64,000 nt of DNA, taken from Mastigias papua. Its lineage: Eukaryota > Cnidaria > Scyphozoa > Rhizostomeae > Mastigiidae. Both the position numbers and the translations under genes were made by a program. How positions within the stretch are numbered: position 1 is the stretch's first letter; the number at the start of each line of letters is the position of its first letter. The stretch spans positions 3,098,501-3,162,500 of the forward strand of contig OZ025271.1 in the NCBI GenBank assembly GCA_964019165.1, in the 5' to 3' direction. A model generated the notes under the pieces. That model had not been told where the DNA came from and made no database searches. It was given only the letters and a program-made list of their open reading frames with translations. Shown here piece after piece: positions 5,729 to 49,456 of the stretch.

Positions 5729-5785
5729 AATGGAGACATATACAATTGTTACAGAGTGTTCTTGACAGCAATCGTTTTGAGAAAG
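5729..5785 (+). CDS. Candidate micro-exon, type B (unit 1)
   Basis: 57 nt between a pyrimidine-rich acceptor (TTATCGTTCTCAG) and a donor (AAAG|GTAAGA). With phase-1 introns it reads WRHIQLLQSVLDSNRFEK and ends with the first base of a Gly-type codon. Length, phase and the pattern LL.S.LD.N..EK match exons at 11299, 31245, 35599, 38187 and 49400. The surrounding intron shares recognisable text with those units, such as ATGAGGTACCACAC before it. Its partner type A exon upstream was not found. Function unknown; helical repeat inferred. Confidence 0.55.
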
Positions 5786-5995
5786 GTAAGAATTGTCTTG
5801 ATGATAGTATTGTCTATTGAGTATATAAAGCATGCATGACTGAGGGTTATAGTTTTAGAGTGGAAGTTTTTCTTCAATGGTTGTATTCTGTTCTGGTACA
5901 TACAGTACAAGTATGCCCTTACTAATGTGTAGATTTACGTGTTTTATGTTAAATTAAGTGATTTAAATGAGCACAAATTTTGGCACAATTTTGAT

Positions 5996-6495
5996 TGTTT
6001 GAGCCCGATTTGCAACTGTGGAAAGGCAATTGAGCACTTTCTCCTGCACTATTCTGTGTATGGTGTTATATGGGCAAGATCTGTTTGGTCATCTCAAACA
6101 CATTCTTGATTTCAACGTTTTGGACATTGACTCCAAATCACTCTGTGATCTACTTCTTTTTGGAGAACCCGACTTAGATGTGAGTGTGAACAAAATGATT
6201 ATAGAGGAAAAAATCCATTTTATCAAAAATATGACACAATTGTAGACTAAGTACAATTAACTGAAATACATGAATATATTACTTGTATGTCTTCTATTTG
6301 TCAGTTGTAACTGTTATTTTCATATTTTTGTTTTCTTGTATATAGATAAATTTGTATTGCAAGTGCCTTTTGTGTTGTTTGCATATATAGACTAATTTAT
6401 ATTGTAAGTGCCAGTCATAGTGGAAACTCAATGACCTTGTGTCTTTTTGTGCTATGATTGGCATAGTTGAATTAAATAATTGTTGCTGTTCTTAG
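5996..6495 (+). mobile_element. LINE 3' fragment (5'-truncated non-LTR retrotransposon)
   Basis: The frame from 5996 gives CLSPICNCGKAIEHFLLHYS, a relic of the C-terminal Cys/His motif of LINE ORF2. After a shift near 6070 the last part reads VLDIDSKSLCDLLLFGEPDL and ends at 6245. The same ending (DLANMDSKALCELLPYGSP) occurs in the minus-strand LINE at 63.2 kb, so the two belong to one family. The rest to about 6495 (GATTGGCATAGTTGAATTAAATAATTG at its end region) resembles a LINE 3' UTR. Confidence 0.7.
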
Positions 6496-8850
6496 TTGTA
6501 GCTTTTAACATTTCATAGGAAAAAGCTACAATAGCCCGTAATCAATAATAGTTGCCATGCATAAACCACCTCCGACCATTGGCTCTGATTTACTTGAAAT
6601 TGATCTTGGCAACCCGCGCAAATGTATTCATTCTAGAAGTAACCTGAAAATGAACAACAACTATTAACAACTCACATGGACAATTTAGCGGAATTTACCA
6701 TTATTCACGGTACACATGTCACTAAGCAAACATTGTTACTGTATGATCGTGGAATTTCGTTGAAAATCTTTGCCAACTCTAACCAAAAGTCTATAACAGA
6801 GAGTGACCACATACTATAAGAACTCAACAACTATCTAAAGATGTCCTGCAATGTTTAGAACAACTTACCAGAACAGCCTGGCAGTAAAATCCCATTGATA
6901 ATCCAGGCCCTGCAATAATTATCTTTCAAAACTGACACCAAGAAACCCCTCAAAGCCATCCTAGAATTACAATGAAATCGGGAATTAATCACAGTTACAA
7001 CTCAGGAGAATACGTAAAAGCAGTAGGATCTTTTAGGTCAATGTACAGCGACTAATAGCACTAAAGGCTTACCATGTTAAGTAGCCGACCATACCATTGG
7101 TTTGTCATGGACTTTCAGTGAAGATCCGTAGTACCTGTTCCTAGAGTTCTACGAAGACACTCTGGAACACATAACAATAGAGTGACATGGTACCCATTTG
7201 TTTCAATTGATTAGAAAGACTTTCCACAGTTAAGGACATATTTTTATATCCCCAAAGATAATGTAAGGAATTTACGAAAAAGAAATGAAATCACGTTGAA
7301 ATAGTATCAAACTCACAGAGAAACCTCTTACTTGTCACGGCAAGCTTAGGATAATAATTACGTTACTTTCTAGTAGCAAACAACGGATTTTTAGGTAACA
7401 AAATCACAGCTGGGCCTCGAGGAATCTAGCATCACCAAATACCCTGGATGTGGTCTCGTGAGAATTCTCTTACATCATATAATGGAGCAATGGAAAAGGC
7501 ACCCAATCGACAAACAGTGGCTACATTGATTGATGCATTTAAGAGCAAAGTAAGTACTCTCCTGGCCCCATATGAAGACGAATTTAGAATACACAATAAT
7601 ACAGCATGCAAACATTCTCTAACCTGGTGGTGTTCCAGAGCTGGCAGCACATGGAAATCCAACATGGAATCTCATCATATTGCTTACAGGGAGCAGCTAC
7701 AGCAAGTAGATTGTGCAGAAACAAACTGATAGTAAGCTACTATTGAGCAGACATATATATCGCCTGAAGCACATCAGTGGCCTTGAGAAAGAAACATTTG
7801 TGGTGCATAACTTGCAGTTGAGAGACAAAGGGACCAACCGAGGAAACAAAGGGAACATACTATATGATGAAAACTGCACAGAAGCATGCCCAAACTGAGA
7901 GATTCTTAGAGAGATGAAAAATTTTACACCCTGTTAAAACAATAGCCGAAAAAGAAACCTAGAATATCTCGGCGAAAAATAGACATATCAGAAAAGACTC
8001 CTTATGGCAAATCATGACCAGTAGGCTATCCCATACAAACAGTTTGCATGGGATCCATCAGCTGGTCTGGGCTGTGGCCTGCTAAATACCGATGTCCATC
8101 ATGCGGTACATTCCAAGGACGTTGATTGTTCCTGCATAAATTATTATATAGGCATCTTAGTATATGGAGACTTAAACTTCCCCTCTACAAGAGTAGCATG
8201 TTGGTTGTTCAATTTACAATCGACTAACATTTACTACTGTGTCCTGCTTTCAAGTGGTACCTCTCTGTCATGCGTGATCCTTGACTAAAGGCACATTTAT
8301 CTGTCCCTCATAGTGCTTATGTACTGTATTCACTGCAGTATATTGACTACATTTTCATGTGTGTAGTGTTTTCTTTCTTGGGGTGGAAATTCTTTTTCTG
8401 ATATTGCTCTGTGTAGAAGGAGCTTTGGGCATTGATTTCATTTATGTAGTTCATTTCTGATTTCGTGGTAGAATTTCTTTGTTTTTGTTGTTTCTATAAA
8501 TGATTAACTTTGTATGTGATCTGCTTTTGGACGCAAATTTATGCTTGTATCCCTTTAAGATTTATCGCTATAAAAACGTTCAGCATGCTTGACTTGTGGT
8601 GTCGGGTCAGAAGATATGATGATCAGAAGATTACACGAGAACTTTTCATTCAAGTTCTGTTGTGTTTTCTTGTGAATATACAGTATTTTCCTAATTATGC
8701 CAAGTGACATTGGTAGCCACGAGGGTGTATAAATAGTACGTTTTCGCTTCTTTTTCATGTATTGTGTGATTTATCGTTTAGTTTCTATATAATTTATTTG
8801 AATATCTTAGTATTTCGTTAGTGAACTTCTTGCCTTGTCTTGTCTTCTTG
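6496..8850. other. No recognisable gene; intronic or intergenic
   Basis: Several short open stretches occur here (7448-7729, 7713-7898, 8510-8707) but none shows a family motif or homologous partner within the window. The text at 7448-7900 reads like a decayed coding relic (Lys/Arg-rich, open in two frames) but I cannot assign it. If the micro-exon model is right, this is part of the intron between exons 5729-5785 and 9446-9499. Confidence 0.4.
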
Positions 8851-8854
8851 CTTT

Positions 8855-9071
8855 GTAAGAAATGCTCCAGCTGTGCAATATTGTAGTGAGTATATGACAT
8901 ACACATCACCGAGGCTCATAGTTTTAGCTTGGAGCCTTTGATTCAAAGATTGTGTTATGTCCTTGTACATGCGCTACAACAACATAAGTAGTAGTGTTAT
9001 AATGTCCTTTGGTTGCTAACTGATGATGGCTTGTGCCGAAACATTTTAGAAGTTTTACTTTTTCTTCTTGA
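8855..9071 (+). repeat. Duplicated segment, copy 1 (with hammerhead-like motif)
   Basis: This matches 11357-11576 closely over its length: both carry GCTCCAGCTGTGC-like text, GTAGTGAGTATATGACATAC, then GGCTTGTGCCGAAACATTTTA and a (TA)n tract. Copy 2 lies immediately after exon 11299-11355. The first copy has lost a recognisable exon at the matching place (CTTGCTTTGTAAGAAATGCTCC). It ends in the microsatellite at 9072. Confidence 0.7.
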
Positions 9072-9181
<110 letters not shown>

Positions 9182-9445: not shown

Positions 9446-9499
9446 AGACCTTTACAGGGATTATAGAGAAGATTTGTTGTGCAGATTGGACTGGTTCAG
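9446..9499 (+). CDS. Candidate micro-exon, type A (unit 2)
   Basis: 54 nt between the acceptor TTAAATTTGACAG and the donor TTCAG|GTAAGT. With phase-1 introns it reads TFTGIIEKICCADWTGS. The block GIIEKI..xDW.xS is shared with exons at 34728 and 37256, although the surrounding introns are only patchily similar. Intron text at 9750-9830 (TTGTCTTCATAAAATC) recurs at 30310-30370, tying this unit to the one at 30 kb. Function unknown. Confidence 0.6.
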
Positions 9500-11298: not shown

Positions 11299-11355
11299 GA
11301 TTCAAATTTGTATGGTTGTTGGAGGACATCCTTAACAACAATCAGCTTCCCAAAG
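11299..11355 (+). CDS. Candidate micro-exon, type B (unit 2)
   Basis: 57 nt from the acceptor TTATCATTCTTAG to the donor CAAAG|GTAAGA. In phase 1 it reads FKFVWLLEDILNNNQLPK. It keeps the type B spacing (LL.DIL.N.QL.K) with low nucleotide identity to exon 35599, so the frame has survived while the DNA diverged. The next candidate exon downstream is at 29991, giving a very long intron (about 18.6 kb) filled with transposons. Confidence 0.55.
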
Positions 11356-11356
11356 G

Positions 11357-11576
11357 TAAGAGATACTCCAGCTGTGCTATATTGTAGTGAGTATATGACA
11401 TACACATCACCAAGGCTCGTAGCTTTAGCTTGGAGCCTTCGATTCAAAGATTGTGTTGTGTAAGTAGTAGTAAGTAGTAGTAAGTAACAACATAAGTAGT
11501 AGTATTATAATGTCCTTTAGTTAGTAACTGATGATGGCTTGTGCCGAAACATTTTATAAGTTTTACTTTTTCTTGA
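11357..11576 (+). repeat. Duplicated segment, copy 2
   Basis: Partner of 8855-9071. Compared with that copy it has a small expansion of GTAAGTAGTA units near 11460-11486 and a better preserved inverted pair flanking the hammerhead-like core. It starts directly at the donor of exon 11299-11355, so the duplicated piece is intron sequence. Confidence 0.7.
11523..11567 (+). ncRNA. Possible type I hammerhead ribozyme-like motif
   Basis: AGTAA (11523-11527) can pair with TTACT (11563-11567) as stem I. The core CTGATGA lies at 11528-11534. A GGC/GCC stem II with loop TTGT follows, then GAAA (11546-11549), and an AC/GT stem III that ends in GTT, where cleavage would be expected. There is one extra T between the core and stem II, and stem III is only two pairs, so activity is doubtful. 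Hammerheads with short stem III are known from Penelope-like elements. The copy at 9015-9059 has a weaker stem I. Confidence 0.3.
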
Positions 11577-11693
<117 letters not shown>

Positions 11694-11699
11694 CTATAA

Positions 11700-13848
11700 A
11701 CATAGCATGCTGCTAGTAGTTTAATAAGCTCGTCCCACAAGTTGGGTAAACAAAATGAGTGACATTCTTACCTCCAATATTAGTCTAATAGTTATATATT
11801 CTCGTCAATTTGAACTTACTTTCCTTTTTCCAATTTCAACTTTATCTTTCCCGCCTCCATAATAAATATAATGATGTGCAACTTCTGTGAAATAGTCGTG
11901 CAAAGATGAATACCTGCTGATGCAAATAGGCATTGCACATTTTACATTCACTGTAGCCACATGTAGTTTAATTCACTGGATGGAATAATTCTGGTTCACC
12001 ACATAGAACTATACAGCTCCGTTTCTCTCAGTAATAATTTTTTTGTGAAAGATACTGCTATGATAACACAACTTTATGTTAAAGAAGGATTTTAGCGTTC
12101 TTTGTCTTCCTTCTCTTGGCAGTTTTTTTTCGCGGGAAAATATGCAAATCATTACCTTATTTTCTGGGGTAGGAAGAGACACTTACAGTTACAATTCAAC
12201 AATGCTATTCAGAGTATATTCTCTTGAGGAATTTTACGGCATTGATGGTAAATTATAAACAGTTCTTTTAGGGTTGAGAGTTACTTTCCCTGGGTGTTGG
12301 GAAGGATTAAATTTGAATGTCACAGTAGAAAAATTTCATTGAGTTATTGCTTAGGCCATGAGGACTGTATAGCTTATTACCATAGAAAAATGCTATCATG
12401 AAATGCCAGGGTTTCAAGCAAGTATGTATTGATGATGGCCTCTTTTGTGCAGATATATTTTACCATTGCAAGAGGGGGTGGCAGGCAAACTGTAAACAAA
12501 TAACATCACCATTCAGGTTTCTGATTGGTCATTGAGGATTGCCTTTGATTGGCTGTTACAAACTTTGCCTCTGTTCATCATACATAAATAAATATTTGTT
12601 ATATGAATACAACTATATAACGTATGGAATGCTTGATAGTTGTAAATATATAGGATAGTTCAACTGGATGATCCGATCCAACTCGATACACATTATAAAT
12701 TCTATATCTCAATACATAGTTTGAATATGACAACATATGGAAGAAAGTCCATCCTAGTCTTAATAGCAACACAGTTAGATATTCAAGTGATACAGGCATG
12801 AGATGGACAACACTCACATTCATAAGAGGGAACTATACACACTCTTATATTAGATTTGTTGAAGATAATGTGTAAAAGAACAGTGATTCAAAAACGACTC
12901 ATTAAATTGACTTTAGAGGATATGTGCTGCTTTAACAGTTATTAGCAGATGTGGATCTAGGGACAAATCTAACTGCCTTACAAATAGATGTGGCTCATAA
13001 ATAACACATGCGCAATAAAAAATTCTTACTGTTTAAGTATGTATGAGCAATCTCTGTAATTTCCATTAAAAAATGAAGTATCTTTCTAATCAAAACATCA
13101 AACAAGTAGAAATATCAAGGGGAATTATTTGAAAAATTTTAAATGAAATACTCCAATACCTCCCCAGCCATATAGTGGTACTTATCTAAGTGGTACTTAT
13201 TCACTACACAACCTATGATGTTATCAGAGAGTGCTGAGTACAGCAGGTATTTGCTCTTTATTTGAGCAGATTGTGACTTCATCAGAGAATTTGGAAAAGT
13301 GCTTTGAAAGTTTTATTTCAGAACTTATTTTTTTGCACTATTCCATCACAACAAGATATAACATCCTGGGTTCTCATTTATCTGTAAGTGGCAATTTTGG
13401 GGATGTATCAAAATGTTCTTTGAAAATTGCATCACTACTTTCAACTCTGAAATTAAGGAGAGATTGAAAGCTTCCAAAGTCTATCATCTCATAGCATTTG
13501 GAATCATCCCTATGACCATTCAATGGTATATAGTTTCTCTTGCAACATAATAGAGAACAGATTTGACGATGGGACAACTAGTCTTGCATATAGTATCATT
13601 TAGTACTATATAATGGAATATCTATCGAAATTAATTTCAATCTACAGAAGGTTTGCATGGTTCATAATGCAGTTTGATAGTTTGATGGGTGCTTGATTTG
13701 ATATGCATATTGAACCTTGCTACTGCATAGGACCAGTCTATGAAAGGACCTCCAACTAGATTGTCTATGTTAATTGAACTGACGCCAATATTGTGACTAA
13801 ACATTAACAAGGAAAAGCTCAGGGCACCACCAAGGAGCTTAGAATATT
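11700..13848. other. No recognisable gene
   Basis: Only short open stretches without motifs (12076-12258, 13231-13467 and minus-strand ones). Under the micro-exon model this is intron. Confidence 0.4.
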
Positions 13849-14389
13849 GACTAGCTTAGTACTGATAGCCCGCTACACGCGGGCTTCTCTAGCCCCAGTT
13901 CAAAAGTTGCATATTAGCCTTAGAAAGACTATCGCTGTGCCCCCATGAAAGTTGCTTGGTCTGGTCGCATAGGATCACGAGAAGATGACTTCATGGGCCT
14001 CTGCGATGGAGCACGTGACTTTTGGCCTTGCATTGTGCAAATCGAAGAAACTTGCGAGAAACATTTGTGCACAAAATGCTCAGATAACTGCGCTAGGCTA
14101 CGGGGCAGTAAAGGGAAAGGAAGACAATCAAGAAGCCCTGTAGCCTAGCGCAGGTACCTGAGCATTTTGTGCGCAATTTTTTCTTGTAATTTACTTCGAT
14201 TTGCACAATGCAAGGCCGAAAGTCACATGCTCCATCGCAGAGGCCCATAACGTCACCTCTTGATCCTATGCGACCAGACCAAGCAACTTTCATGGGAGCA
14301 CAGCGTTAGTCTTTCCAAGGCTAATATGCAACTTCTGAACTAAGGCTAGAGAAGTCCGCATGTAGCGGGCTATCAGTAATACGCTAGTC
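13849..14389. mobile_element. Foldback (long inverted repeat) element, complete copy
   Basis: The left arm (13849 to about 14110) is the inverted, slightly diverged copy of the right arm (about 14125 to 14389). Both outer ends contain TACTGATAGCCCGCTA. The centre is a short AAAGGGAAAGGAAG spacer, so either strand could fold into a hairpin with arms near 255 bases. Each arm contains a homologous open frame of 66-67 codons starting MKVAWSGRIGSR, one on each strand (13945-14148 + and 14293-14093 -). There is no transposase, so it would be non-autonomous. Target duplication is uncertain; TA is possible. Confidence 0.75.
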
Positions 14390-15530
14390 TCTATTATACG
14401 AATTGTTGAATGCACAGAATTGTTTAAATGCTCTCTACGATGAGGCACTAATGAAACTACATGACATATTGTCTCCTGTTTCACTCAAATCTAACGTACG
14501 GAGTCTTGGATATAATTTTAAGATGTTATAACAGATACAATGTAGCACATGAATTGGCAGGTATGAGTGTTTCTGTTATCATGTAGGTGACCACTAATCC
14601 TGTCCACAGAGGTACACAATCAAGTCTGATCCATAAACGTAGGTGTTATACAACTGGAATCTGTGATAGGACTTGGTAGCTCAAGATGATAAAATAAAAT
14701 AATATTGCTTAGTATTCCTATATCACATCTTTATATAATATATACCAGAGTGTAAAACTATTGATTGAGCAGCATGAATCATATTAGATATCAGCCAAAG
14801 TTCTTGGGGGGAGTTCATAGGTTGTGGCTATACAAAACAAATAATGCAGCTATCCAGTACTAAATTATCTGTTACAACTATGTGAAATTCAGATTTCAAC
14901 CAATACTTGTAGTTGGATAGGGGAGAGTGGCCCCATAAATCAAATATTGCTATCTAGTACTAATTCATCCCTAAACAAGCTATAATATCATATGCAGAAT
15001 GATCTATGGAAGTCAGTAATTCTTTAAAATGAGTAATAATATATATCCTGTATCATCAACTCAGATGTCAAACGAAGGCATTACCTCAGTGGGGGCAAGG
15101 GGCTTCATAAATTAAGTCTAGGCAATATAAATGATGGTCATATCTAGTACTGATTCATCCCTTAAGAGTATACCATCATGTGCAGAATGATCTATGGAAT
15201 TCGGTTTGGCATTTATAACAAATGATCTCAGAAAGAAGGGGAACTGTGTCCCAACAGAGGAACATTCAGTATAGTGGAACCCCTTAAATTTCACTTGACC
15301 AGAATAACTCTACCATCTATAGTGGAAATAACTATGAAGCCTACTGTAGATACAGTGAAAACAACATAAAAAGAGAGTTACTGAGGTGAGAATAAAGTTG
15401 GTAACATCTTAGTGTTTGCCTGTAAAACGTGTATGATAAAATCAAGGAGTATATTAGACTGTAAGGGCAATATCTCAAATGTAAGCAAAGTGCCCAAACT
15501 CTTGAGACATCCTAGCATCCAACTCACGTC
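14390..15530. repeat. Segmental duplication, copy 1
   Basis: Matches 17060-18165 in the same orientation with scattered substitutions and small indels. Shared marker texts include AGATACAATGTAGCACATGAATTG (14533; ATATAGCACATG in copy 2), TTCTTGGGGGGAGTTCATAGG (14802, 17488), and a run of TATCTAGTACTAA-type phrases. The duplication includes the right part of the foldback element, so the foldback was present before the segment doubled. No gene recognised. Confidence 0.8.
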
Positions 15531-15549
15531 TCTATATACTCAGATGCCT

Positions 15550-16150
15550 ATATGCTAATTTATGCCAGACCAATCAGATTGCTTGAAATTGTACCACGTG
15601 ACCTGATATCGCGCACACGATCTCCTCCCAGTGCATTTGTCCAATGGCCCCCATATTTCTGTCTAGGGTGGCCATTTGGGTCTACTACTTACATCAGGAG
15701 AGATCTGATTTTAATCAATTTTTTGCCGAGTTATTCACCTTTCTTCCCATCGCCATTCACAGGAATACTGTTACTGCTCCCTGCTGGACCGCATGTTGTC
15801 AGTTTTGCAAGCGGTCATGTAGGACTAAGTAGCTGTATGTGTTATCGCAAGGAGACTTTTGTTGCTGTTCTTCCTGGTAAGCCTGCTCTATTTTCCTGAA
15901 ATGGGTTTGATTTACGATTTCCTGTATCTCCTTTGTCCATTTCATCCGTATTCTACAGTTGCGAACCATTACTACCATAAAGTTGCTGTGTGACTTGGAG
16001 GAGAATTTTGTCGATCTGCTTCCAGTTTACTGCTGTTTTCGCTTGATTTCATTTGCCAAGGAATCCTACTTTTCGAGACTGATATCGCTATGACAGATCT
16101 TCCCGAGCCGTTTCATCCTCTCTGCTAAACCATAGTGCTTTTGCCGGTAA
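15550..16150 (+). promoter_or_regulatory. Promoter-like, CpG-richer island with possible first exon(s)
   Basis: Against the AT-rich background this stretch has two CCAAT boxes (15570-15574 and 15641-15645), an E-box CACGTG (15595-15600) and several CG dinucleotides. Two strong donor-like sites follow, CCTG|GTAAGC (15876/15877) and GCCG|GTAAGT (about 16149/16150). It lies between the two copies of the segmental duplication and belongs to neither. It could be a transcription start and 5' exons of a gene, but no coding exon follows that I can recognise. The open frame at 15552-15899 has no known motif. Confidence 0.3.
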
Positions 16151-16744
16151 GTTGTGATAAACCATATAGAAGATATTTTCATGTTGTATTTTGTGGTACA
16201 TTATGGTGTATTTCGCTTATTTCTTACGCTTTGTTACCTGACATGGGATAACATTCGGGAAGCTTTCAGTTTGGGTTGTTTTTGCATGATGTTAAGTCCC
16301 AGTTTTATTTTGCAGAAAATAAAGTAAGGCGTGATAAAATATCAACCAGTAGCATACTGAAATTGGTTTCTCTAACTTCCAAAGTTTTTCCGTGTTTTAC
16401 CTGTATGAGGTTGTTCGTTGTGTTATCTATTATAACTCTGAAAGGTTTGTAGCCCTCCCCCCGTATGCGTTAAGCAATGAATAGGCTGCTGTTCGTCGTT
16501 CATGTCAAGTGTGATTACAAGCAAACTACATGACTTGCTAGGTTTCTTGAGTGTTAGCCATATAGCGTTTAGGTATTCTTCAATCTTCATTCTGGTGTAG
16601 TTTCTCTAGAGACACGCGAGGGGATTCCCTAGTTCATCTTGCAATCGCAGATACATTTGATCCTTTGTTTCCGAACAACTACATTATAGATTTGTGACTG
16701 CAAAGGGTTCTGGAAGTTGTTCGGCAGCTTCCTACTGGACTATT

Positions 16745-19042: not shown

Positions 19043-19061
19043 ATGCCGAAAACATGAGAAT

Positions 19062-22531: not shown

Positions 22532-22599
22532 ACACTCTTTGTAGATAAGTGATGTCTTTGCTCCATTTCCTTCGGTCTTGCTTAAACAGTTTTCACCTG

Positions 22600-29990: not shown

Positions 29991-30044
29991 GTATCCTAAG
30001 AAGGATGATAGACAAGATTTGTGAGGTGGATTGGGAGTATTCAG
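29991..30044 (+). CDS. Candidate micro-exon, type A (unit 3)
   Basis: 54 nt after the acceptor CTTACATTTGACAG and before TTCAG|GTGAAA. In phase 1 it reads ILRRMIDKICEVDWEYS. Compared with unit 4 (VKEGIIEKISKEDWHST), the positions of I-I/M-I, the D/E-K-I triplet, DW and the final S are kept, while most codons differ. The acceptor text TTTGACAG is the same as in units 2 and 6. Confidence 0.6.
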
Positions 30045-31244: not shown

Positions 31245-31295
31245 ACATTGCAGAATGTTTACGATGGCTTCTTTGCAACAAATCGCTTAATCAAG
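31245..31295 (+). CDS. Candidate micro-exon, type B (unit 3)
   Basis: Using the acceptor GGGCATAG, 51 nt reading IAECLRWLLCNKSLNQ before the donor TCAAG|GTAAAA. In the other type B exons the acceptor lies 6 nt further upstream; here that place reads TTCTCGG instead of TTCTCAG. Either the acceptor moved by two codons or this exon is failing. The LRWLL.N.SLNQ pattern fits type B. The Harbinger-1 element begins 60 bases after the donor. Confidence 0.5.
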
Positions 31296-34005: not shown

Positions 34006-34727
34006 CCCGGTTGACTGGGCTGGCTCGCCTACATGTGTTCACATGGGAATTTTCTATCTCGGCTAGCCGAGATCTTGGCAGATCAAGGTGAGATCGCGGT
34101 CAGGCAGGCTGGCTCGTTTCTCATGTGAACACAAGTAGCATTTTAAGTACTGATCACTATGAAGCTGAGATCTCGCCTAGGTGAGCCAGCCCGCTATACC
34201 GAGCCAGCTCGCTCCATGTGAACAGGCCCTTAGTTTTAGCTTGGACATTTTCCTTCAATGTTGTATTGTGTCCTTGTACATGCAGTAGAAGGATACGTAA
34301 TGTGCTTTACTTTGTATTTATACATTAACTCGTGTACCATGTTCTCTCTATAGCACACTAACTGTAGTACATTTTCTCACAATGAATATTCAGTTTCTTC
34401 GAATTACCATCAACTAACATATATTACTGTCACATAGATAATGTGACCTGCTTTCAAAACATTATGCCTTTCGTGACAGATACTTGAATAAGCGTAAATT
34501 TCTTGGCTCATTATAATAATTATGATTCGTAAGGTGACACATATGATAATTATTGATATCAAACATTCTGTCTTATACTCTTGGAATATGATTAGTCATG
34601 AGATTGCCCTATATTTATTTCATGTAACATTTTGTTGGTTTGCACATGACGCTGATATATGTTATCTATTTACTACTATACTAGAGTATCTGATGTTGCC
34701 TTTGGCGATATTCCTTTCATTTCATAG

Positions 34728-34781
34728 TGGTCAAAGAAGGGATTATAGAGAAGATTTCTAAGGAGGACTGGCATTCTACAG
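34728..34781 (+). CDS. Candidate micro-exon, type A (unit 4)
   Basis: 54 nt after CCTTTCATTTCATAG and before CTACAG|GTAACC, reading VKEGIIEKISKEDWHST. From the sixth codon on, it is identical in protein to the type A exons at 37256 and (but for one Ile/Val) 48528. The first four codons differ in all three. A + frame through 34761 ending in a stop is only a shifted reading of this exon. Confidence 0.65.
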
Positions 34782-35598
34782 GTAACCGAGACGTTTCTAC
34801 ATATAGTATCTTAAGTAGCTCCTGCAGAGAAATTTATAAATATGTATAGTGATAGTTAAACAGTAATGACATGTGAGTTGATATCTCCTAATATTGGCTA
34901 TATTACATCCCCAATTTTAATTGTTCCTTGTTTTTAGAGTATATATGCGGTTACAACACTCTGCTCTAGGTTCTAGATATAAAATGAATATTGATGAGCT
35001 AGGCTTCCTGTACGAGCTTAACTGTCAATCTTCATCGGTTTTATACAGTTGAAATAAGAAGCAATCATACATCTGAGAGCACATTATTTGATGTAATCCA
35101 CTCGAATAGCTAAACATTTGAATCAAGAGAGGTGTATTATATCTGAAGATAGACGAAAATTGATTGTCAGTGTATTTTGCTGCTATATAGAGAAGACACC
35201 TTTGATGTACAAGGGATGCTAAACTTCCAAGCCATTTGTCACAAACCAGATGACTTACATTTCATACTACATGTTGCTGATTACATTAAAATCTATAGGT
35301 GAATTAGAATATGGGGTGCTTTAGTTATCTTTTGCAGCCACATTGCTAATATGTAATTCCTACACTATGACATAATACACTCCCACATTGTGCATATGGT
35401 GTCACAAGTAGCCTTCCTTATCGAAAGACTAGCACTATTGTTTTCTGTGCTATGCCAAAATTATTGTGCTTGGTATGAAGTAGTCACAGCTGATGTCATT
35501 GAGTATTGTGAACTATTTTCATTACTGCTTACCTTGCTCCTGCAGTGTTTCTGGGTTTATTTTTTATGTGTATCACAAAGCTTTTTCATCATTGTCAG

Positions 35599-35655
35599 AA
35601 AGTGAATTTCCAACATTGTTGCACAAGATTCTTGATTACGATCGACTAGAGAAAG
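35599..35655 (+). CDS. Candidate micro-exon, type B (unit 4)
   Basis: 57 nt after TTCATCATTGTCAG and before AGAAAG|GTAGGA, reading SEFPTLLHKILDYDRLEK. It differs from the unit 5 exon by only two amino acids (T/R and K/T). A pyrimidine run and CAG lie 27-40 bases upstream as well (TTGCTCCTGCAG), but that would add a stretch not conserved in length between units. Confidence 0.65.
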
Positions 35656-37255
35656 GTAGGACCTTGTCTAGTTAGACTATATATTATTGTGTATATCACA
35701 CTGACATGACCAAAGATCTATAGATTCTATCACTGCGCTTTAATTTCAATAGTTGTGTCATGTCGGTATACATGAATTACATCAATATTTTACTAGTATG
35801 TTAGTGTGCTATAGACTGTACAATGTCGTTCAATGCATGACCAGTTTCTCTCTTGCTACATTGGAACCATGGATTTAGTGCGTTTTCATCTAATAGTACG
35901 GGTGCGCTTGCATTTCCTTTTAAGTTTCTTTACATACTATAACATATATACTATGTTAGTATTGTGAAATATCATGATGTGTAGAACCTCATTGGAATTT
36001 ACATGCACTTTTTTACTGTGTATGAAGTATTCACTGTCTGAGGAGAGTTTGTACGGTATCCTTGACTGGCAACTAAATCTTAAGCCTAGCTTAAGGGAGT
36101 ACACTCCCCTATCTCCATTTCACACAATGTACACTGTATGAATTCCTTGGGCATTATTCCATTGGATTGTGTACATGCATTGTTGACAACTGTGTTTGCA
36201 TTGCGTCCGTTTGTTGGCTATATAATTCACAGTGTGAGATAAATATGTTGCCAGATCACAATGTTTAGGGTACTTGTTGAAAAGCAGCGAATACCCTGAT
36301 TACACAGATGTTTGATACACATCCAGCTGGTAATGTGTTGTAGCAATTGAAAATAAGATGTATATCAAATACAGTGCGTTATGTTTGGTCATCTCCATCA
36401 AAGTTAGATCAAAGGTCTATTATGTTCTGTTTATACAATGCTCCCTTTCCATGTATCACCATTGGAACATCCTTCAGAGTTATTTACAATATGATAATCT
36501 CAGCATTTTGCATGTGATTTTGCACTGTTTTGGCTTGATATGTCGCATGTACACTGTAGTGCATAAGTGTCATATTGCACAATCAATAGATATGTGAGTT
36601 ACCTCTTTGAGTGTGTTTCCACTACTATTGAGATGTAATGTCGTATACTACTTTTATAGTTATACAAGATCATTTTACTATAGTTTACTTTCTTTGTCAT
36701 CAATTAAACTTCTTTCGTTTTCATCAATTAAACATGGTTGATGTTCCAAGGATCCGATGCTTTTTCTATTGTAGCATTTCCCATAACTTAAGAGTGATTT
36801 GTTGTCTCAGTTCCATTTCTCCACACATCAACAGTGCGCTGCTTGCATTTATACAAGTGACATGTCATAATGGACTCTGTAGATTATGACTTAAGCTTCA
36901 TTTACTCAGGATGAATGTTCAGTTTCTTCGACTTAGCATCAATTAACATATATTTCTGTCACAGAAATACTGCTTCCTGCTGTCAAACAGTATGCCTTTT
37001 GTGGTAGATACTTGAATAGGCTTAAATTTATTGGCCCAGTATAATACTCATGATTCGTAAGGTGAAACATATGATAATGTTTGATATTAACACTTCTGTC
37101 TTATATTCTTGGATTATGACGTGTCTTGAGAATGTTCTTTATTTATTTCATGTAGCATTTTGTTGGTTTCCACCTAAAGCAGATATATGCTATCTATTTA
37201 CTACTATACTAGAGTATCTGATGTTGCCTTTGACGATATTCCTTTCATTTAACAG

Positions 37256-37309
37256 TGGCCGAGCAAGGAATTATAGAGAAGATTTCTAAGGAGGACTGGC
37301 ACTCTACAG
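37256..37309 (+). CDS. Candidate micro-exon, type A (unit 5)
   Basis: 54 nt after CCTTTCATTTAACAG and before CTACAG|GTAAAT, reading AEQGIIEKISKEDWHST. It differs from unit 4 almost only in the first four codons (plus one silent change at His). Confidence 0.65.
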
Positions 37310-38186
37310 GTAAATGAGACTTTGATAAATATAGTATCTTGAGTAGCTCCTGTATTGAGGTTTATAGATATATGTAGTGATAGTTAAACAGTAATGACGT
37401 ATGAGTTGATATCTGCTAATATTGGCTATAGTATGTGCTCAATTTCAAGTGTACTTGGTTTTTAGGGTATATATATGGTTGCAACACTCTGCCTAGGTTC
37501 TAACTATAATATGAATATTAAATGAGCTAGGCTTCCTGTACGAGCTTAACTGTCAATCTTCATTGGTTTTATACAGTTGAAATAAGAAGCAATCATACAT
37601 CTGAGAGCACTTTATTTGATGTACGTCACTCAAATAGCTACACATTTGAATCAACACAGTTTTATTGTATCTGAAGATAGGAGCTTATTGATTTTCATTG
37701 CAATTCTCTGCTATATAGAGAGGAACCCTTTGATGTACAATGGATCCTAAACTTCCCAGCCATTTGCCATAAACCAGATGACATACATTTCATTTTACAT
37801 GTTGCGGATTAGATATATATATATTTATATATATTTATATATATTTATATATATATATTGATATATATTTATGTATATTTACATATGTCCACTAGAATAT
37901 GGGGTGTTTTAACTATCTTTTGCAGTCACATTCCTAATGTGTAATTCCTACTCTATGACATAAAACACCCCCACATTGTGCATATGATGTCACAAGTAGC
38001 CTTCCTTATCGAAAGACAAGCACTATTGTTTTCTGTGCTATTCCAAGCTTATTGTGCTTGGGATGAAGTGGTCACAACTGCGTTGATTGAGTATTGTGAA
38101 CTATTTTCATTTTTGCTTTCCTTGCTCCTACATTCTTTCTGGATTTATTTTTGGTCTTTCTCAAAACGACTTTTCATCGTTATCAG

Positions 38187-38243
38187 AAAGTGAATTTCCA
38201 AGATTGTTGCACAAGATTCTTGATTACGATCGACTAGAGACAG
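38187..38243 (+). CDS. Candidate micro-exon, type B (unit 5)
   Basis: 57 nt after TTCATCGTTATCAG and before AGACAG|GTAGGA, reading SEFPRLLHKILDYDRLET. Partner of the type A exon 878 bases upstream; in units 4 and 6 the A-to-B intron is 817 and 818 bases. Confidence 0.65.
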
Positions 38244-39181
38244 GTAGGAAATTTTCTAGCGATTCTATGTATTATTGTGTATATGTTCCAACCGTGACCA
38301 AAGCTCATAGATTGTAGCACGGAGCTGTAGTTTCAATTGTTATGTCTTGTCAGTATGCATGACATACATCAGTACTTTTACTAGTAGGTTAGTGTGCTAT
38401 AGATTGTACAATGTCGTTCAATGCATGACCAGTTTTTCTCTGGCTACATTGAAACCATGGATTTAGTGCGAGTTTATCTAATAGTACGAGTGTGCTTGCA
38501 TTTCCTTTTCAGTTACTTTGAATTCTATAACATACATACTATGTTAGTATTGTGAAATGTCATGATGTGTAGAACCTCATTGGAATTTACATCCACATTG
38601 TTACTGTGTATGAAGTATTCACTATCTGCGGATAATTTGTACGATGTCCTTGACTGGCAACTAAATCTTAGGCCTAGCCCAAGAGAGTACACTCCCCTAT
38701 CTCCATTTCACACAATCTACACTGTATCTATCTCTTGTGCACTATGCCATTGGATTGTGTACATGCATTGTTGACAATTGTTTTTTGCATTGCGTCCGTT
38801 TGTTGGCTATATAATTCACAGTATGAGATAAATATGTTGCCAGAACACAATGTTTAGGGTACTTGTTGAAAAGCAGCGAATACCCTGATTACACAAATGT
38901 TTGATACACATCCATCTAGTAATATGTTGTAGCAATTGAAAATAAGATGTATATCAAATACAGTGCATTATGTTTGGTCATCTCCATCAAAGTTAGATCA
39001 AAGGTCTATTGTGTTCTGTTTATACAATGCTCCCTTTCCATGTATCACCATTGGAACATCCTTCAGAGTTATGTACAATATGATAATCTCAGCATTTTGC
39101 ATGTGATTTTGCACTGTGTTGGCTTGATATTTCGCATGTACACTGTAGTGCATAATTTTCATATTGCACAATTAATAGATA

Positions 39182-39378
39182 TGTGGAATTCATCAGGAGT
39201 CACTCGCAGCAGACACGTCAATTTGCTCTCAAATAGCACTCTAGCACCTAAGATTTTACCTCAACATTGTTTTAAGGGAGGAGGGGATCAGTAGCTGTCA
39301 CATTTGACTGCAAATTCACTATTGTCAAATAAACTTCATTGTTCAATAGGTGTTCCAAGGAATTATGGCAGAGATTGT
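39182..39378 (+). repeat. 197-bp direct repeat, left copy
   Basis: Direct copy of 41452-41648 with few differences; shared start TGTKGAATTYATCAGGAG and end TGGCAGAGATTGT. It could be a short LTR of a small retroelement (TRIM-like), but TG..CA ends, a primer site and a purine tract were not found. Confidence 0.8.
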
Positions 39379-41451
39379 CTGACACATATGGTTGTAAGGG
39401 GAATTGCATGATGGAATAAATATGTACCATAGGGTTTTTCGTGGTCCTGATTTCAATGGTTTTGTTGCCAACTCCATATCTGTAATGGTTTAGGAGGTGG
39501 ACATAGTGACATGCATCAATTTTGTTCTGTTTCTACCATGCCAGAAAGACTATCCGAGTCTGAAGGCACATGAGTTCATACTTCAAGTTAATAAGCAAAA
39601 CTGTGTTTTTTCCACTGAGAATAAAGTTACCGTCTGAATTGTGGGCTAGTAAATGGACGGTTCACGTAAGGCATAACTGTCATTTGCGCGATAGCTTATT
39701 ACTTATACGATCAAAATGGCAAAGTCTCAACTCGCTTATTTCTTGTATGACATAGACAACAACGATGTCGGAAGAGTTTATATAATTACTTATAGCAACA
39801 CAACCATTTAGATGTTTCTACTGAAGCAGCTTGATCTGGAGTCTATATATTGCATTAGCTGCATCCTCTGCTTACAAAAGTAATAAGTAACGCTATGTCG
39901 TCAAATCAAACAAAGGCAATCAAGTTCTGTAATATGCTCACCTGTTTAGAATATGGCGACCAATAAAAAGAAAAAGAGCACATTATGTTCAGTTGTAAAA
40001 GCAGGAGCTAAGAGAGTAGGTTTGGCCTTTAAAAGAAGGTCCTATTATTGGAGAATAGACCCAGTGGAGTTGGATAAGCAGATGCCCCCTTCAGGTGCTG
40101 GTGTTAGGCCTTGGCAAGGGTACTAATATTTGTTTCAACGGCCCTGTACACACTCCTGATACACAGCTAAAATGCCTGGCATAGAGTTATATTCACTTTA
40201 TCAATATGTATACCAAATCGCTCCCTTGTATTGCGACGGGCTGCAGAAATAACAGCTAATAGTGTGAAATGATTTATGTGCTTGCCCGCTTGCTTCCATG
40301 CTACAATAACATATTATAGCTTGCAGACAAAACTGTCCAATGCACTACACCAGAAAACGAGTCAAAACAAAGATATTGAAGGTACTCGCAACACACAAGT
40401 GTGTTGCTACAGTACGAGCACCAGTATCCCCTTTAAATTTTTGTAGGAGACAATCGGTTCGCTGATATTATCACTGTACAAAGGGCCTCCTGCTTTCTCA
40501 CCACTCTTTCAAGTTCTAAGACCAAGAATCTCTTACTATGTGCTTATTGTCTAGCTCTTTGTTGCAGCGGCCATTCACGTCACTTTTCGCAGTTCTTCCG
40601 TAATAGTGATGACCCGCAGTGCTTGTGCAATGGTAGTGAAACAGCGATTTGGCAACGATTTACCATTACATTTCCAGCTTGTGTGATTCAGTATTAGGCG
40701 ATATCGAAGAACTAGCTGCAGTAAAAGTGGTACATGGATAAGTACATTTGTAGGAATACAGAAAAGTACATTGGTATTATCGAGAGGAAAGTAAAATCGA
40801 GGAAATTGTCACGGTTTACCATTTTGTGCAGATAAACATGAATAGGATTAGAGTCATTTCTTGAAAAATTGTAAACCGTGCAGTTTTTCTCCTTTTTCTC
40901 AGAAAGGATACATCAATTTTGCACGTAACTTAATGTAACAGTAGTACTTACTTGTGTACCACTTTGTGCAAAATTGAGAAGTTATAGCATAATTCCCCGT
41001 AGTTTTATAAGCAATAATAAAATGGTAAACCGTGTGGTAAACCGTTGGAAACGAGTAGAGAAAAGCAATCCAATTCAATGCGATGATTATAAATGTGCTT
41101 GAAACCGCTCTTGTGGATAGAATCAATTGCCGATTCCAGAATACGTTGATTATTTCGTTGTGTTAGAAGTATAATAACTATATTTCCTTAGATTTGTTCA
41201 TTGATTCCACTTTTATACTTGGAATTGGTGAACACAATCGCCAGCCAAGAACAGAGCATCAGTACTACACCCCCTCAGTTGAGCCCTTACCCCGCCCAAT
41301 ATCAAATTTTCAATATGACCAATGAGATCAGCAGTTTCAAAATGTAGCCTCCTAACAGAATTGGCTCAGACAATAACTGCCAAAATTCTTGGAACACTTG
41401 CATTACTTTTTGACTCATAGAGCAATCTCTCCCTCTCCCACCTTAGAACAA
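39379..41451. mobile_element. Insertion of unknown class between 197-bp direct repeats
   Basis: About 2.07 kb inside unit 5 with no homologous counterpart in units 4 or 6. It has one clean short open frame (39953-40126) and an inverted pair CACGGTTTACCATTTT (40809) and AAAATGGTAAACCGTG (41019). No reverse transcriptase or transposase was seen. Confidence 0.45.
39953..40126 (+). CDS. Small basic hypothetical protein, 57 aa
   Basis: An ATG-initiated frame with a Lys run at the N-terminus (MATNKKKKSTLCSVV), a basic middle (KAGAKRVGLAFKRRSYYWRI) and a Pro/Gly-rich end (MPPSGAGVRPWQGY). The composition is more protein-like than neighbouring short frames, but there is no second copy to test conservation and I do not recognise a family. 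It sits within the direct-repeat-flanked insertion. Confidence 0.25.
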   Translation: MATNKKKKSTLCSVVKAGAKRVGLAFKRRSYYWRIDPVELDKQMPPSGAGVRPWQGY

Positions 41452-41648
41452 TGTTGAATTTATCAGGAGTTACTCGCAGCAGACACGTCAATTTGCTCTC
41501 AAATAGCACTCTAGCACCTAAGCTTTTACCTCAACATTGTTTTAAGGGGGGAGGGGATCAGTAGCTGTCAAATTTGATTGGAAATTCACTATTGTCAAAT
41601 AAACTTCATTGTTCAATAGGTGTTCCAAGGACTTTTGGCAGAGATTGT
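41452..41648 (+). repeat. 197-bp direct repeat, right copy
   Basis: Partner of 39182-39378. Unit 5 sequence (GTTGATGCTCCAAGGATCC) resumes right after it. Confidence 0.8.
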
Positions 41649-41846
41649 AGTTGATGCTCCAAGGATCCAATGCTTTCTCTTTGGTGGCATATCCCGTAAC
41701 TTAAGAGTGATGTGTTGTCTCAGTTCGGTTTTTCCCACATCAGAAATGTGTTGGTTCCATTTATACATGAAAAATGTCATAATTGTCTCTGTGGATTATG
41801 ACTTAAGCTTCATTTACTCAAGATGAATGTTCAGTTTCTTTGACTC
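41649..41846 (+). repeat. End of unit 5 and first bases of unit 6
   Basis: 41649-41822 matches the end of unit 4 (36730-36903). 41823-41846 (GATGAATGTTCAGTTTCTTTGACT) is the start of unit 6, which is then cut by the LINE. Confidence 0.75.
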
Positions 41847-42104
41847 ATTAATTATGCAGAAAATAATTATGGGTCATAACAAACAAATGCTCTCGTTATT
41901 AAGAATGCACCAGGTATGAATAGGCATTACCCTGAGAAACCTGCAGTATGTAAAGTTGATAACTTTGGTGCCTAGTACGCTCTCTTTAAAGCTGATTGTT
42001 GTTGTTATCCCTTCTCAAGTTAATTCTCGAATTCCTGTCTGTTATGACGTATGAGGTACCGAGAAGAGAGTAATAATCCATTGTATGATTCTAATCCTAA
42101 TATT

Positions 42105-42796
42105 TATTATATGCTGATGACACAGCCCTTTTATGTTTGTGCCCAAACGATTTATAAATGGTGTTACTTGCACGCAATAAAGCTGGAAATCCATCCGGCA
42201 TGGAAGTGAATATCAAGAAAACCAAAACAATTTTAGTCAGCAAGACATCGCCATCTCCTACAATAAGCAGTACCTTAGAAGGAAGTCCCTTTCAACAGAC
42301 TAGTTTGATACCATATTTAGGTTTATTCATTACAGAAGATGGACGGTGTGAGAAGCAGGTTAAAAAAAGAATTTAAATTACAAGGAGTGCCTTCGTAAAG
42401 ATGAATAAAATCTTAACATCAATGAAATTAAGTATTGACACCAGAAAAAGGCTGTGTGTATGTTACATTTGGTCAAAATTGCGTTATGGTTCAAAAAATT
42501 TGACATTAACAAAAATAACCACAAAAAAACTTACAAGCTTTTGACATGCGGATGCTGAGAAGAATGCTAGAGATACCATGGATTGTGCACAAAACAAAAA
42601 TTGAAGTTTTGCAATTGGCTAATGCAACATCAACACTCCTATCATCAATAGAGAAAAGAAGATGTAAGTATTTTTTGCACCTTACAAGAGAGAATAGCAT
42701 ACATAGAGTGCTTCTAGAAGGGAAGATAGAAGGAAAAAGAGGCAAGGGAAGTCTAAGGGTAAAGTGGATGCACAACATCAAAGATTGGATGAATCT
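42105..42796 (+). pseudogene. LINE reverse transcriptase C-terminal half, broken
   Basis: The YADD box, thumb and C-terminal region are recognisable, but with a frameshift between the YADD and GMEVNIKK parts (stop at 42157), a stop at 42376 and a shift near 42545. Codons from 42546 run in frame up to the gypsy-2 insertion point at AATCT. Confidence 0.8.
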
Positions 42797-43295
42797 TTAG
42801 TGATTCTTGATTGTAGTGTTTTTGATTTTAGAACTGATGCTTAAAGTTCTTATTATATTTAAAAGAACGATCTCACCGATGTACTTCTCTTTACTTTAAA
42901 CAAATGCACGTTGCAGGCTGGTAGACAGTAAGTCGTATTTGTGTGTGTAATCTTCACCACGATAGAAATCAACTGACTGCTTACAAATTATGATTTGGTA
43001 TGTACATTTGCTTTCCAAAATTACGTATAAAGATGAAGTAAATAAAATCTCTGTTGGAAAGGACGGGCTAGGTAAAGTATGGCAATGTGTTGAGGGAAAG
43101 TTAGCATAAGAATCGGCCTAACAAAAGGGCAAGATGTTATGACGCAATAGATTGTTACTGTGATGTTAGCTTAGTGTTAGCGTAGAGGAAGTGATGGGAA
43201 TGAACTGTAGAATAAACTCGTAATGAATGAATGAATGAGTGAATGAATGAGTGAATGTAGTGGAAGATAAAGTAACTACAAATGTGATTGCTACG
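42797..43295 (-). repeat. gypsy-2 3' LTR
   Basis: Outer + strand start TTAGTGATTCTTGATTG; inner end GTGATTGCTACG. It contains a TGAA/TGAG tetranucleotide tract at about 43222-43258. Confidence 0.9.
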
Positions 43296-44512: not shown

Positions 44513-46519
44513 CTAGTCAAATACAAGATGGCAGACAGGTGCAGGAATGTATGGGGGTGGTGAGGCAGTGGTCATATCGCAGAGGATGGTGCTTGTGGAA
44601 AATGGTAATGGCAGAGCTTGGAAGTGCAAGGATGCTGAACAGAGCTGAGAGAGATCTGGATCATTCTGTTGGGCTTGTGCGATGAGTGTATACTCAAGAG
44701 AAGGTGTGAGAGCAGTAAGTGCATTGATATCCATGCATGAAAGGGCATCAACGACTGAGTTGTCTTTTCCTTGAACATGACGGATGTCAGAGGTAAATTG
44801 TGAGATGAAATCAAGGTGTTGAGTTTCTCCTGAAGAATAATGGGATGGTGGGGAAGATAAGGCATGTGTAAATGGCTAGTGGTCAGTGAGAACATAGAAT
44901 TCACATCCTTCTAAAAAATGGCGAAGATGACGAATGGAAGGGTAAATGGAGAGTAACTCGTGTCTGAAAGTACTATATCTAGTTTCAGCAGGCTGCAAAC
45001 ACTTGGAGAAAAAGGAAATGGGTTACCAGGTATGACTGATGCGCTGTTGAAGAACTCCACCCACGGCGACATTAGAAGCATCAACCATAAGGCAGTATGG
45101 TGCAGAAGGATCAGGATGAGTGAGTAGAGTGGCTTTGGCAAGAGTGGTTTTCACAGCTTGACAGGCAGACAGTGCACCCTCGGAGAGGTGAAATGATTCG
45201 GTACTGGTTTGCTTTGGTGACAGGAGATCAGTGAGCGGTTGGACAAGTGAGGCACAGTGCGGGATTAATCGATGATAGAAGTTAACCAAACCAAGGATTT
45301 CGCATAGCTTGCATAAGGAGGATGGAGCAGGAAAGTCTTGAATAGCTTGCACTTTGTATGGAAGAGGAGAGATACCATGAACTGAAATCTCGTGGCCTAA
45401 GAACTCAAGAAATGCAGCACCAAATATGCACTTGGAAGGATTTATGACAATTCTGCATTCCGAAAGATGATTGAAAAGGATATCCAGGTGTGCCAGGTGC
45501 TCAGCTTCTGAAGAACTGGCAATCAGGACATCATCGATGCACGCATGCACAAAATTGAGGCCACTGAGAACTTCATCAATGAAATGTTGAAAAGTTTGAG
45601 CAGCATTACGGAAACCAAACGGCATGCACAGAAACTCGAACAAGCCAAGAGGAGTGCGAATGGCGGTCTTAGGAACATCATCTGAGTGGACAGGAATCTG
45701 ATGATATGCGCGGACAAGATCAATCTTGTAGAAAATGGATTTGCCTTGTAGTGAAGAGGAAAAGTCATGGATGTGTGGTATGGGATAACAGTCTGGCAGA
45801 GTGACTTTGTTCAAAGCGCAATAATCACCGCAAGGACGCCAATCACCAGGAGTAGGTTTGGGGATCATATGAAGTGGAGAAGACCACGAACTGTCAGAAG
45901 CACAAATGATGCTAAGCTAGAGCATGTGATCAAATTCAGATTTAGCAATCTTGGGACAATCAGGAGCAAGGCGGCGAGGATGGCAGAAGACAGAAGGTCC
46001 AGTAGTGCGAATCTGATGGGTGACAGAATGTTTAACAGACGATTCGTTGTAGCATGGACTGGAAATGTTTGGAAATTTGCACAATAAATCTTTGTAAGGA
46101 GTAGAAGCAGGGAAATGAAAAACAGGACGTGGTGAGATTGCAGTAGATTGAATACCATTAAGACTGAGGCCGGTAGTAGTGTCAATGAGCGTGCGATGTT
46201 GAACATCGACTCTAAGTCCGAAATGGGCGAGAAAATCGGCTCCCAGAATAGGGAAGGGAAGGTCAGCAATTATGAATATCCATCGGAAACTACAGCGAAG
46301 TCTGATGTCTAAGGTCATGGATTTTTCACCACAAATAGAGATGGCAGATTTTTTGACAGCCTGGAGAATCATGGAGGCAGGTTTACGTTTTTCAGCAGCA
46401 GAAGAGGGAATAACACTGACATCAGCACCGGTATCAACGAGGAAACAAGTACCAATAGTATGGTAGGTGATGTAAAATAGGCGACTTGTGGTTGAAGAGC
46501 CTGCTGGACTGGTCGCCAC
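44513..46519 (-). pseudogene. gypsy-2 protease, reverse transcriptase and RNase H, in-frame stops
   Basis: One continuous frame broken only by stops (TAG about 45917, TAA about 45022, TAG about 44880). The protease active site is FLVDTGADVSVIP near 46440. The RT has [47 protein letters not shown] and the catalytic [13 protein letters not shown], where Cys replaces the usual Tyr of YxDD. The RNase H starts at [17 protein letters not shown] and ends near RHVQGKDNSVVDALS. All domains are in family order. Confidence 0.9.
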
Positions 46520-47566: not shown

Positions 47567-47568
47567 CT

Positions 47569-48105
47569 TTAATGATTCTTGATTGTAGTGTTTTTGATTT
47601 TAGAACTGATGCTTAAAGTGCTTATTATAATTAAAAGAACGATCTCACCACTGTACTTCTCTTTACTTTACACCAATGCACATTGCAGGCTGGTAGACAG
47701 TAAGTTGTATTTGTGTGTAATCTTCACCACGATAGAAATCAACTGACTATTTACAAATTATGATTTGGTATGTACATTTGCTCCCCGAAATTACGTATAA
47801 AGATGAAGTAAATAAAATCTCTGTTGGAAAGGACGGGCTAGGTAAAGTTTGGCAATGTGTTGAGGGAAAGTTAGCATAAAAATAGGCCTAACAAATGGGC
47901 AAGATTTTATGACGCAATAGAATGTTAATGTGATGTTTGCTTAGTGTTAGCATAGAGGAAGTGATGGCAATGAGCTGTAGAATAAACACGTAATGAATGA
48001 ATGAATAAATGAATGAATGACTGAATGAATGAATGAACGAATGAGTGAATGAATGAATGACTGAATGGAGTGGGAGATAAAGTAACTAGAAATGTGATTG
48101 CTACA
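47569..48105 (-). repeat. gypsy-2 5' LTR
   Basis: Longer than the 3' LTR (537 against 499 bases) because of a larger TGAA-type tract at about 47992-48067. In element orientation it starts TGTAGCAATCACATTTC. The promoter should lie within it. Confidence 0.9.
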
Positions 48106-48527
48106 AATCTAGATTATTGTGATTGTGTGTGATTCTCAAACATCAGAGAAGATTGAATGTCTATGACTGTCAACCTGCTAGGAGCAGACAACACATGAAG
48201 AAGAAGACCATATATTACTGTCACAGAGATACTGTGTCCAGCTTTCACGCAGTATGCCTTTCGTTGCAGATACTTGAATAGGCGTAAATTACTTAGCCCA
48301 TTATAATAATTATGATTCGTAAGGTGAAACATATGATAATGTTTGATATTAAAACTTCTGCCTTATACCCCTGGAATATGATTTGTGATGAGAATGTCCT
48401 TTATTTATTTCATGTAACATTTTGTTGGTATGCACATAAAGATGATATATGTTAGCTATTCACTACTACACTAGAGTATCTGATGTTACCTTTGACGATG
48501 TTCTTTTCATTTGACAGTGGCCCTAAA

Positions 48528-48581
48528 AAGGATTGTGGAGAAGATTTCTAAGGAGGACTGGCATTCTACAGGTAAACGAGA
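48528..48581 (+). CDS. Candidate micro-exon, type A (unit 6)
   Basis: 54 nt after TCTTTTCATTTGACAG and before CTACAG|GTAAAC, reading ALKRIVEKISKEDWHST. The last eleven codons are the same in DNA as in unit 4. Confidence 0.65.
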
Positions 48582-49399
48582 TTTTGATAGATATAGGATC
48601 TTAAGTAGCTCCTGTGAAGTGGTTTATAGATATGTGTAGTGATAGTTAAACAGTAATGACATGTGAGTTGATATCTCCTAATATTGGCTATATTATGCCC
48701 CCAATTTTAATTGTACTTAGTTTTTAGAGTGTATGTACAGTTACAACACTCTGCTCTAGGTTCTAGCTATAACATGAATATTGATGAGCTAGGCTTCCTG
48801 TATGAGCTTAACTGTCAATCTTCATTAGTTTTATACAGTTGATGTAATAAGAAACAATCATACATCTGATAGCACTTTATTTGATGTTATCCACTGGAAT
48901 AGCTAATTCTTTGAATCAATACAGTTGCACTGTATCTTAGGATAGACGAAAATTGATTGTCAGTGCATTTGGCTGCTATGTAGATATGAAGCCTTTGATG
49001 TACAAAGGATCCTAAACTTCCAAGCCATTTGTCACAAACCAGATGACATACATTTCATACTACATGTTGCCGATTAGTTTAATATCTATATATCTTTATG
49101 TGAATTGGAATATGGGGAGTTTTAGTTCTCTTTTGCAGTCACATTGCTAATATGTAAGTCCCACACTATGACATAATACACCCCCACATTGTGCATATGG
49201 TGTCACAAGTAGCCTTCCTTATTGACAGACGAGCACTATTGTTTTCTGTGCTATGCCAAGCTTATTGTGCTTGGTATGAAGTAGTCACAGCTGATTTCAT
49301 TGAGTATCTTGAACTATTTTCATTTCTGCTTTCCTTGCTCCTACATTCTTTCTGGATTTATTTTTGGTCTTTCTCAAAACGAGTTTTCATCGTTATCAG

Positions 49400-49456
49400 A
49401 AAGTGAATTTCCAAGATTGTTGCACAAGATTCTTGATGACAATCAGTTAGAGAAAG
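49400..49456 (+). CDS. Candidate micro-exon, type B (unit 6)
   Basis: 57 nt after TTCATCGTTATCAG and before AGAAAG|GTAGGG, reading SEFPRLLHKILDDNQLEK. It is the last exon of the alternating series that I can find; no terminal exon or polyadenylation signal was assigned downstream. Confidence 0.65.

Follow-up and report, generated by a model that had tools for sequence, protein, structure and literature searches.

The window analysed here, 64,000 nucleotides (nt) of contig OZ025271.1 of Mastigias papua (assembly GCA_964019165.1, positions 3,098,501 to 3,162,500), carries on its plus strand eleven short exon-like segments of two alternating kinds, A and B. Judged from the DNA sequence, they may well be, at present or until recently, phase-1 mini-exons of one rapidly evolving animal gene, a reading whose chances we consider about even. 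The segments belong to an old tandem unit that is present six times and consists of A, an intron, B and a tail, one copy being without A (Table 1). Splice signals and open frames have been retained in these copies beyond the expectation of a neutral model.

Splice sites and reading frame

The first base of all eleven segments is at codon position 2 and the last at codon position 1, and all are open when read with phase-1 introns. The earlier note on this DNA had described flanking acceptors, GT donors and a G before each donor, and AG, GT and the final G were indeed found in 11/11 segments; its lengths also hold, 54 nt for 5/5 A and 57 nt for five of the six B, the remaining one, B3, having 51 nt. 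Every segment that it listed exists, the last A being located at 48518-48571 and not at 48528. That they should be open in phase 1 only applies to seven of the eleven, a second frame being open in B1, A2, B2 and B3; phase 1 is the sole frame open in all eleven. When the B exons were aligned, B3 showed GG at the AG acceptor of the others and its own AG 6 nt further on.

Splice sites were scored with generic, homology-blind weights over 719 phase-1 plus-strand candidates of 45-66 nt. The eleven segments occupied ranks 1, 2, 4-10, 12 and 15, and a score of 6 was reached by 14 of the 719 candidates, ten of these being the listed exons. In the other two plus-strand readings, in which the same sites can be reused, this score was reached by 9/675 and 4/710 candidates, and in the three minus-strand readings by 3/475, 2/612 and 0/578. 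A leave-one-out comparison of peptides among 129 plus-strand candidates placed ten of the eleven exons and a shorter reading of A2 in the top 11 rows (lowest score 33); other segments of this strand scored at most 15, and the 77 minus-strand candidates at most 21. This ranking in part restates the duplication.

Retention compared with neutral decay

The main rival explanation is a neutral tandem repeat, that is, a duplicated non-coding unit in which A and B are either chance open frames between AG and GT or relics of an exon pair that was dead before the duplications. It was confronted with a simulation of neutral decay from an ancestor taken as the consensus of the surviving copies, leaving out B3 (a fourth lineage of B, its acceptor having moved); a lineage was counted if its frame was open and its splice score at least the lowest observed. 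The probability for one lineage at 18% divergence was 0.056 for A and 0.100 for B. Taking three deep lineages together, P was about 1.8e-4 for A (5.6e-5 to 5.8e-4 over 15-21% divergence per lineage) and about 1.0e-3 for B (2.7e-4 to 3.4e-3 over the same range); using AG, GT and frame alone, with B3 again left out, it was 0.016 (A) and 0.027 (B). That splice strength and frame were held in the deep lineages argues against a neutral repeat, and the ranking and the simulation together support the proposal of the earlier note that phase-1 symmetric mini-exons in A-B pairs have kept splice sites and frame longer than neutrality predicts.

The retention of open segments between AG and GT was followed in an alignment which did not include B1. 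A alone among 171 such segments of u4 persists in u2 as well as in u3, and it is present in u5 and u6 too; none of the 138 minus-strand segments of u4 is retained in u2 and u3. B fails this strict test because the acceptor of B3 is shifted. Within the alignment, u2, u3 and u4 share no other open segment of this kind, and DNA profiles of these copies revealed no further decayed A or B copy, the strong matches being five A, six B and one exon-less tail; both observations are difficult for the neutral repeat.

Table 1. Mini-exon candidates, repeat units and conserved blocks in the window (rank, splice-score rank among 719 candidates).
Feature	Positions	Strand	Length (nt)	Sequence	Donor	Rank	Remarks
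Exon B1	5729..5785	+	57	WRHIQLLQSVLDSNRFEK	GTAAGA	4	
Exon A2	9446..9499	+	54	TFTGIIEKICCADWTGS	GTAAGT	2	
Exon B2	11299..11355	+	57	FKFVWLLEDILNNNQLPK	GTAAGA	1	
Exon A3	29991..30044	+	54	ILRRMIDKICEVDWEYS	GTGAAA	12	
Exon B3	31245..31295	+	51	IAECLRWLLCNKSLNQ		15	acceptor displaced 6 nt
Exon A4	34728..34781	+	54	VKEGIIEKISKEDWHST		10	
Exon B4	35599..35655	+	57	SEFPTLLHKILDYDRLEK		7	
Exon A5	37256..37309	+	54	AEQGIIEKISKEDWHST		6	
Exon B5	38187..38243	+	57	SEFPRLLHKILDYDRLET		5	
Exon A6	48518..48571	+	54	ALKRIVEKISKEDWHST		9	start corrected
Exon B6	49400..49456	+	57	SEFPRLLHKILDDNQLEK		8	
Repeat unit u2	~9.4-11.7 kb	+					older copy
Repeat unit u3	29.9-31.35 kb	+					older copy; tail piece at 34.22-34.29 kb
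Repeat unit u4	34370..36898	+					A4, B4, tail; u5 adjoins directly at 36899
Repeat unit u5	36899-39185 and 41650-41854 (span 36899..41854)	+					split by ~2.5 kb insert
Repeat unit u6	48209-49692, 51041-51494 and 52147-52433 (span 48209..52433)	+					interrupted by other repeats
Orphan post-B2 copy	8855..9180	+					88.7% to 11356-11692; begins at donor position, unrelated sequence in the exon's place
Block upstream of B	5499..5578 and equivalent place in other B units						~150-230 nt 5' of B
Block X	36129..36582 (u4 tail), 38718-39171, 51041-51494						no coding signal

Tandem origin and divergence of the peptides

Exons and introns derive from one ancient tandem duplication, the copies of which are now separated by transposons, a circumstance underrated by the earlier note; the lone B1 is likewise an older copy of the unit. 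Exon-exon similarity alone is thus no evidence of coding, because exons and introns have diverged together.

A number of results weigh against the mini-exon reading, and several of these are what a neutral repeat would give. The earlier note had held that the old units kept a residue pattern in spite of diverged introns, which was not borne out. Among the old units, intron identity is 0.61-0.75 (200-base flanks) and exon identity 0.56-0.74. The comparison of old pairs which the note had proposed gave, for six pairs pooled, dS (synonymous divergence) 0.50, dN (nonsynonymous divergence) 0.52 and dN/dS 1.02 (B3 left out for length); values for the individual old comparisons were between 0.63 and 1.93, with no purifying selection on the peptide. 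Replacements in the old pairs were no more conservative than random placement (BLOSUM, P 0.11-0.61 given an open frame, B3 again left out), so that the residue pattern does not exceed chance. The best-conserved parts of the units, the block upstream of B and block X, are non-coding and surpass the exons in conservation, and with hundreds of candidate segments some would persist by luck. Considering these points together with the retention data, we regard the neutral repeat as a rather doubtful explanation.

The remaining difficulties concern the mini-exon reading itself. B3 fails two tests, the leave-one-out peptide ranking (rank 27, score 8) and strict segment retention. The P values of the simulation are optimistic, since the ancestor is the consensus of the survivors, the splice weights are generic and the segments had been selected visually to begin with. 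Among strong plus-strand splice pairs 24-300 nt long, 28 in number and not examined individually, none could be recognised as a further exon of the gene. No homologous protein for the peptides was found in Pfam, in the PDB (best E 0.92 with a single sequence and 5.2 with a profile) or in a database of 5.8 billion proteins (0/448 and 0/644 candidates at E <=10, each search within a protein-length range).

The three young comparisons gave dN/dS values of 0.39, 1.00 and 0.36 with few changes, two of them hinting at constraint. Of 420 ungapped window-strand combinations scanned, 57 were open in u2, u3 and u4 (mean z 0.19, standard deviation 0.51); z was -0.02 to 1.15 in the windows in the A/B reading frame, and the two highest values (1.91 and 1.39) belonged to another frame across the A donor. 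The "possibly helical" character of the repeats is weakly supported by the amphipathic-helix moment, for which comparison with shuffles gave P <0.02 in four of the eleven segments (A3, B5, A6 and B6) and 0.08-0.34 in the other seven. The possibility that A and B are mutual copies was also considered and was not established: the best local alignments gave the exact donor register in five of the 20 pairs tested (30 possible), a sixth pair, A3-B3, being one base off, none of the 20 exceeded shuffles at P <0.05, and the register is biased by the splice consensus that both kinds have in common.

Searches with joined chains and DNA patterns

The Pfam matches of the joined chains (Colicin_Pyocin, Imm8, Cse1 and others) were all below their own cut-offs and were taken as chance. 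One of the sub-threshold matches, that of the whole joined chain to Death_3 (E 0.042), together with a likeness noticed by eye, suggested that the segments might be relics of a duplicated fragment of a known helical domain with a CARD/DED-like death fold, of which A and B would represent two helices. The match reached 14.4 bits against a cut-off of 27, the four single A-B units tested (u5 not among them) had no Pfam match at E <=10, the PDB offered no relative and exons for the remaining helices were not seen; this origin is therefore judged highly improbable. DNA patterns of exon A gave no hit in viral_contigs or in genome_contigs, negatives which say little because neither is a collection of animal genomes.

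Conserved stretches without coding signal

The block upstream of B is the best-conserved part of the B region among the old units, with a mean identity of 0.71-0.76 in 40-base windows. As a minus-strand coding exon it was rejected, its changes being mostly nonsynonymous, though five of six copies are open to a shared stop (B3 misregistered in this count). Block X was likewise rejected as coding, with dN > dS in 3/3 pairs; it may represent a promoter or the result of gene conversion. Scans of the whole window against Rfam and for tRNA genes returned no match.

It is in block X that a further alternative finds its basis, namely that each unit has its own promoter and that the pairs are separate small genes, or alternative starts whose A-B modules are joined to constant exons beyond the window. 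Variable modules are joined to constant exons in this manner in the UGT1 and protocadherin clusters. Conservation among the three young units peaks in block X, the core of which (36204-36503) is 92-100% identical, compared to 78-95% for most other 100-base windows; the block lacks a coding signal, lies upstream of the next A and includes a TATATAA-like stretch. Against a promoter in every unit, the block was detected in three young units only, no conserved first coding exon was recognised and the TATA reading was made by eye. We consider this arrangement improbable.

Proposed origin of the array

If the segments are mini-exons, five or more tandem duplications of an A-B pair and its introns would have taken place, and transposons would then have moved the copies apart. 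Pairs could be gained, lost or skipped without a frame shift, because all exons begin at codon position 2 and their lengths are multiples of three. Across the deep divergences selection would have retained in-frame exons and not the peptide sequence. This could be due to a fast-evolving protein, with a role in defence or secretion, or to in-frame cassettes tolerated by a host gene, in which a stop or a frameshift would be harmful and an amino-acid change would not. Both causes need the segments to be exons. We infer that the pairs are transcribed and that all of them belong to one gene, whose protein may have such a role.

Elements between the units and elsewhere in the window

The insert of u5 is bounded by direct repeats of 198 bases (39181-39378 and 41451-41648, 95% alike). 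Between the units lies a minus-strand retroelement, presumably of Gypsy type, with two long terminal repeats (42795-43257 and 47567-48027, 93% alike) and a reverse transcriptase at 45026-45916. A second element is bounded at 31355 and 34230 by inverted ends of 59 bases, and its match to DDE_Tnp_4 is below the cut-off (20.7 bits vs 24.8).

Elsewhere, a gene for a transposon-like protein with a YqaJ domain occupies two overlapping frames at 19180-20909. A public record matches it at 97% over 94% of the part searched, and among its 64 relatives the sole species named is the jellyfish Rhopilema esculentum (four rows). An open reading frame (ORF) with a THAP domain and a DDE_Tnp_4 transposase ORF form a pair on the minus strand at 21032-22603. 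The region 13840-18162 contains two long blocks (14075-15524 and 16749-18162, 83% alike) that constitute a repeat of no identified type, with an inverted part (13840-14106 vs 17075-16808, 90%).

Comparison with known systems

Tandem exon duplication arrays such as the Dscam clusters consist of repeated exons with introns in the same phase. Repeated same-phase exons are common to both, the unit here being an exon pair; convincing conservation of RNA pairing was not found in the block 5' of B, where each strand has one pair with a compensatory change and the energies are weak. Among the papers listed in literature searches by wording, no matching earlier report was recognised, as judged by titles and the openings of abstracts.

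The architecture seems closer to that of the micro-exon genes (MEGs) of schistosomes or the bicycle genes of aphids, without sequence kinship to either as far as tested. According to two reports on MEGs, these genes have small symmetric exons of 3-81 bp spaced by long introns (PMC10526429), three of them show dN/dS values of 1.10-1.14 in the mature region (PMC4350168), and the family, whose products are secreted, is described as apparently restricted to platyhelminths (PMC4350168, PMC10526429). Small symmetric exons are shared with the A and B segments, and the MEG plan, a coding region made mostly of very small symmetric exons, is true here for the visible part of the putative gene, whose ends were not found.

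The bicycle genes, according to PMC9168663, have many small internal exons, nearly all of which begin at codon position 2, with at least five exons per gene and about 17 on average, and their exon structure persists while the protein diverges fast. The A and B segments are similar in exon size and in their codon-position-2 starts (11/11), and they would amount to 11 exons if all belong to one gene. In contrast, the CYC motif is absent, by eye, from the eleven peptides and the joined chain, and the unit here is an alternating A/B pair of exons. No sign of a hemipteran host was seen, the YqaJ-domain protein of the window having jellyfish relatives.

It is tempting to speculate, albeit tentatively, that the plan of the MEG and bicycle genes arose a further time and independently in a cnidarian-like animal, growing by the copying of a two-mini-exon unit, with selection keeping only what is spliceable and in frame as the peptides diversify. 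If the mini-exon gene is real, it would be one that ordinary gene finding misses, with exons below ORF thresholds and a sequence too fast for homology, and its exon architecture would have been maintained during peptide drift; structure alone could then reveal fast effector or defence genes.

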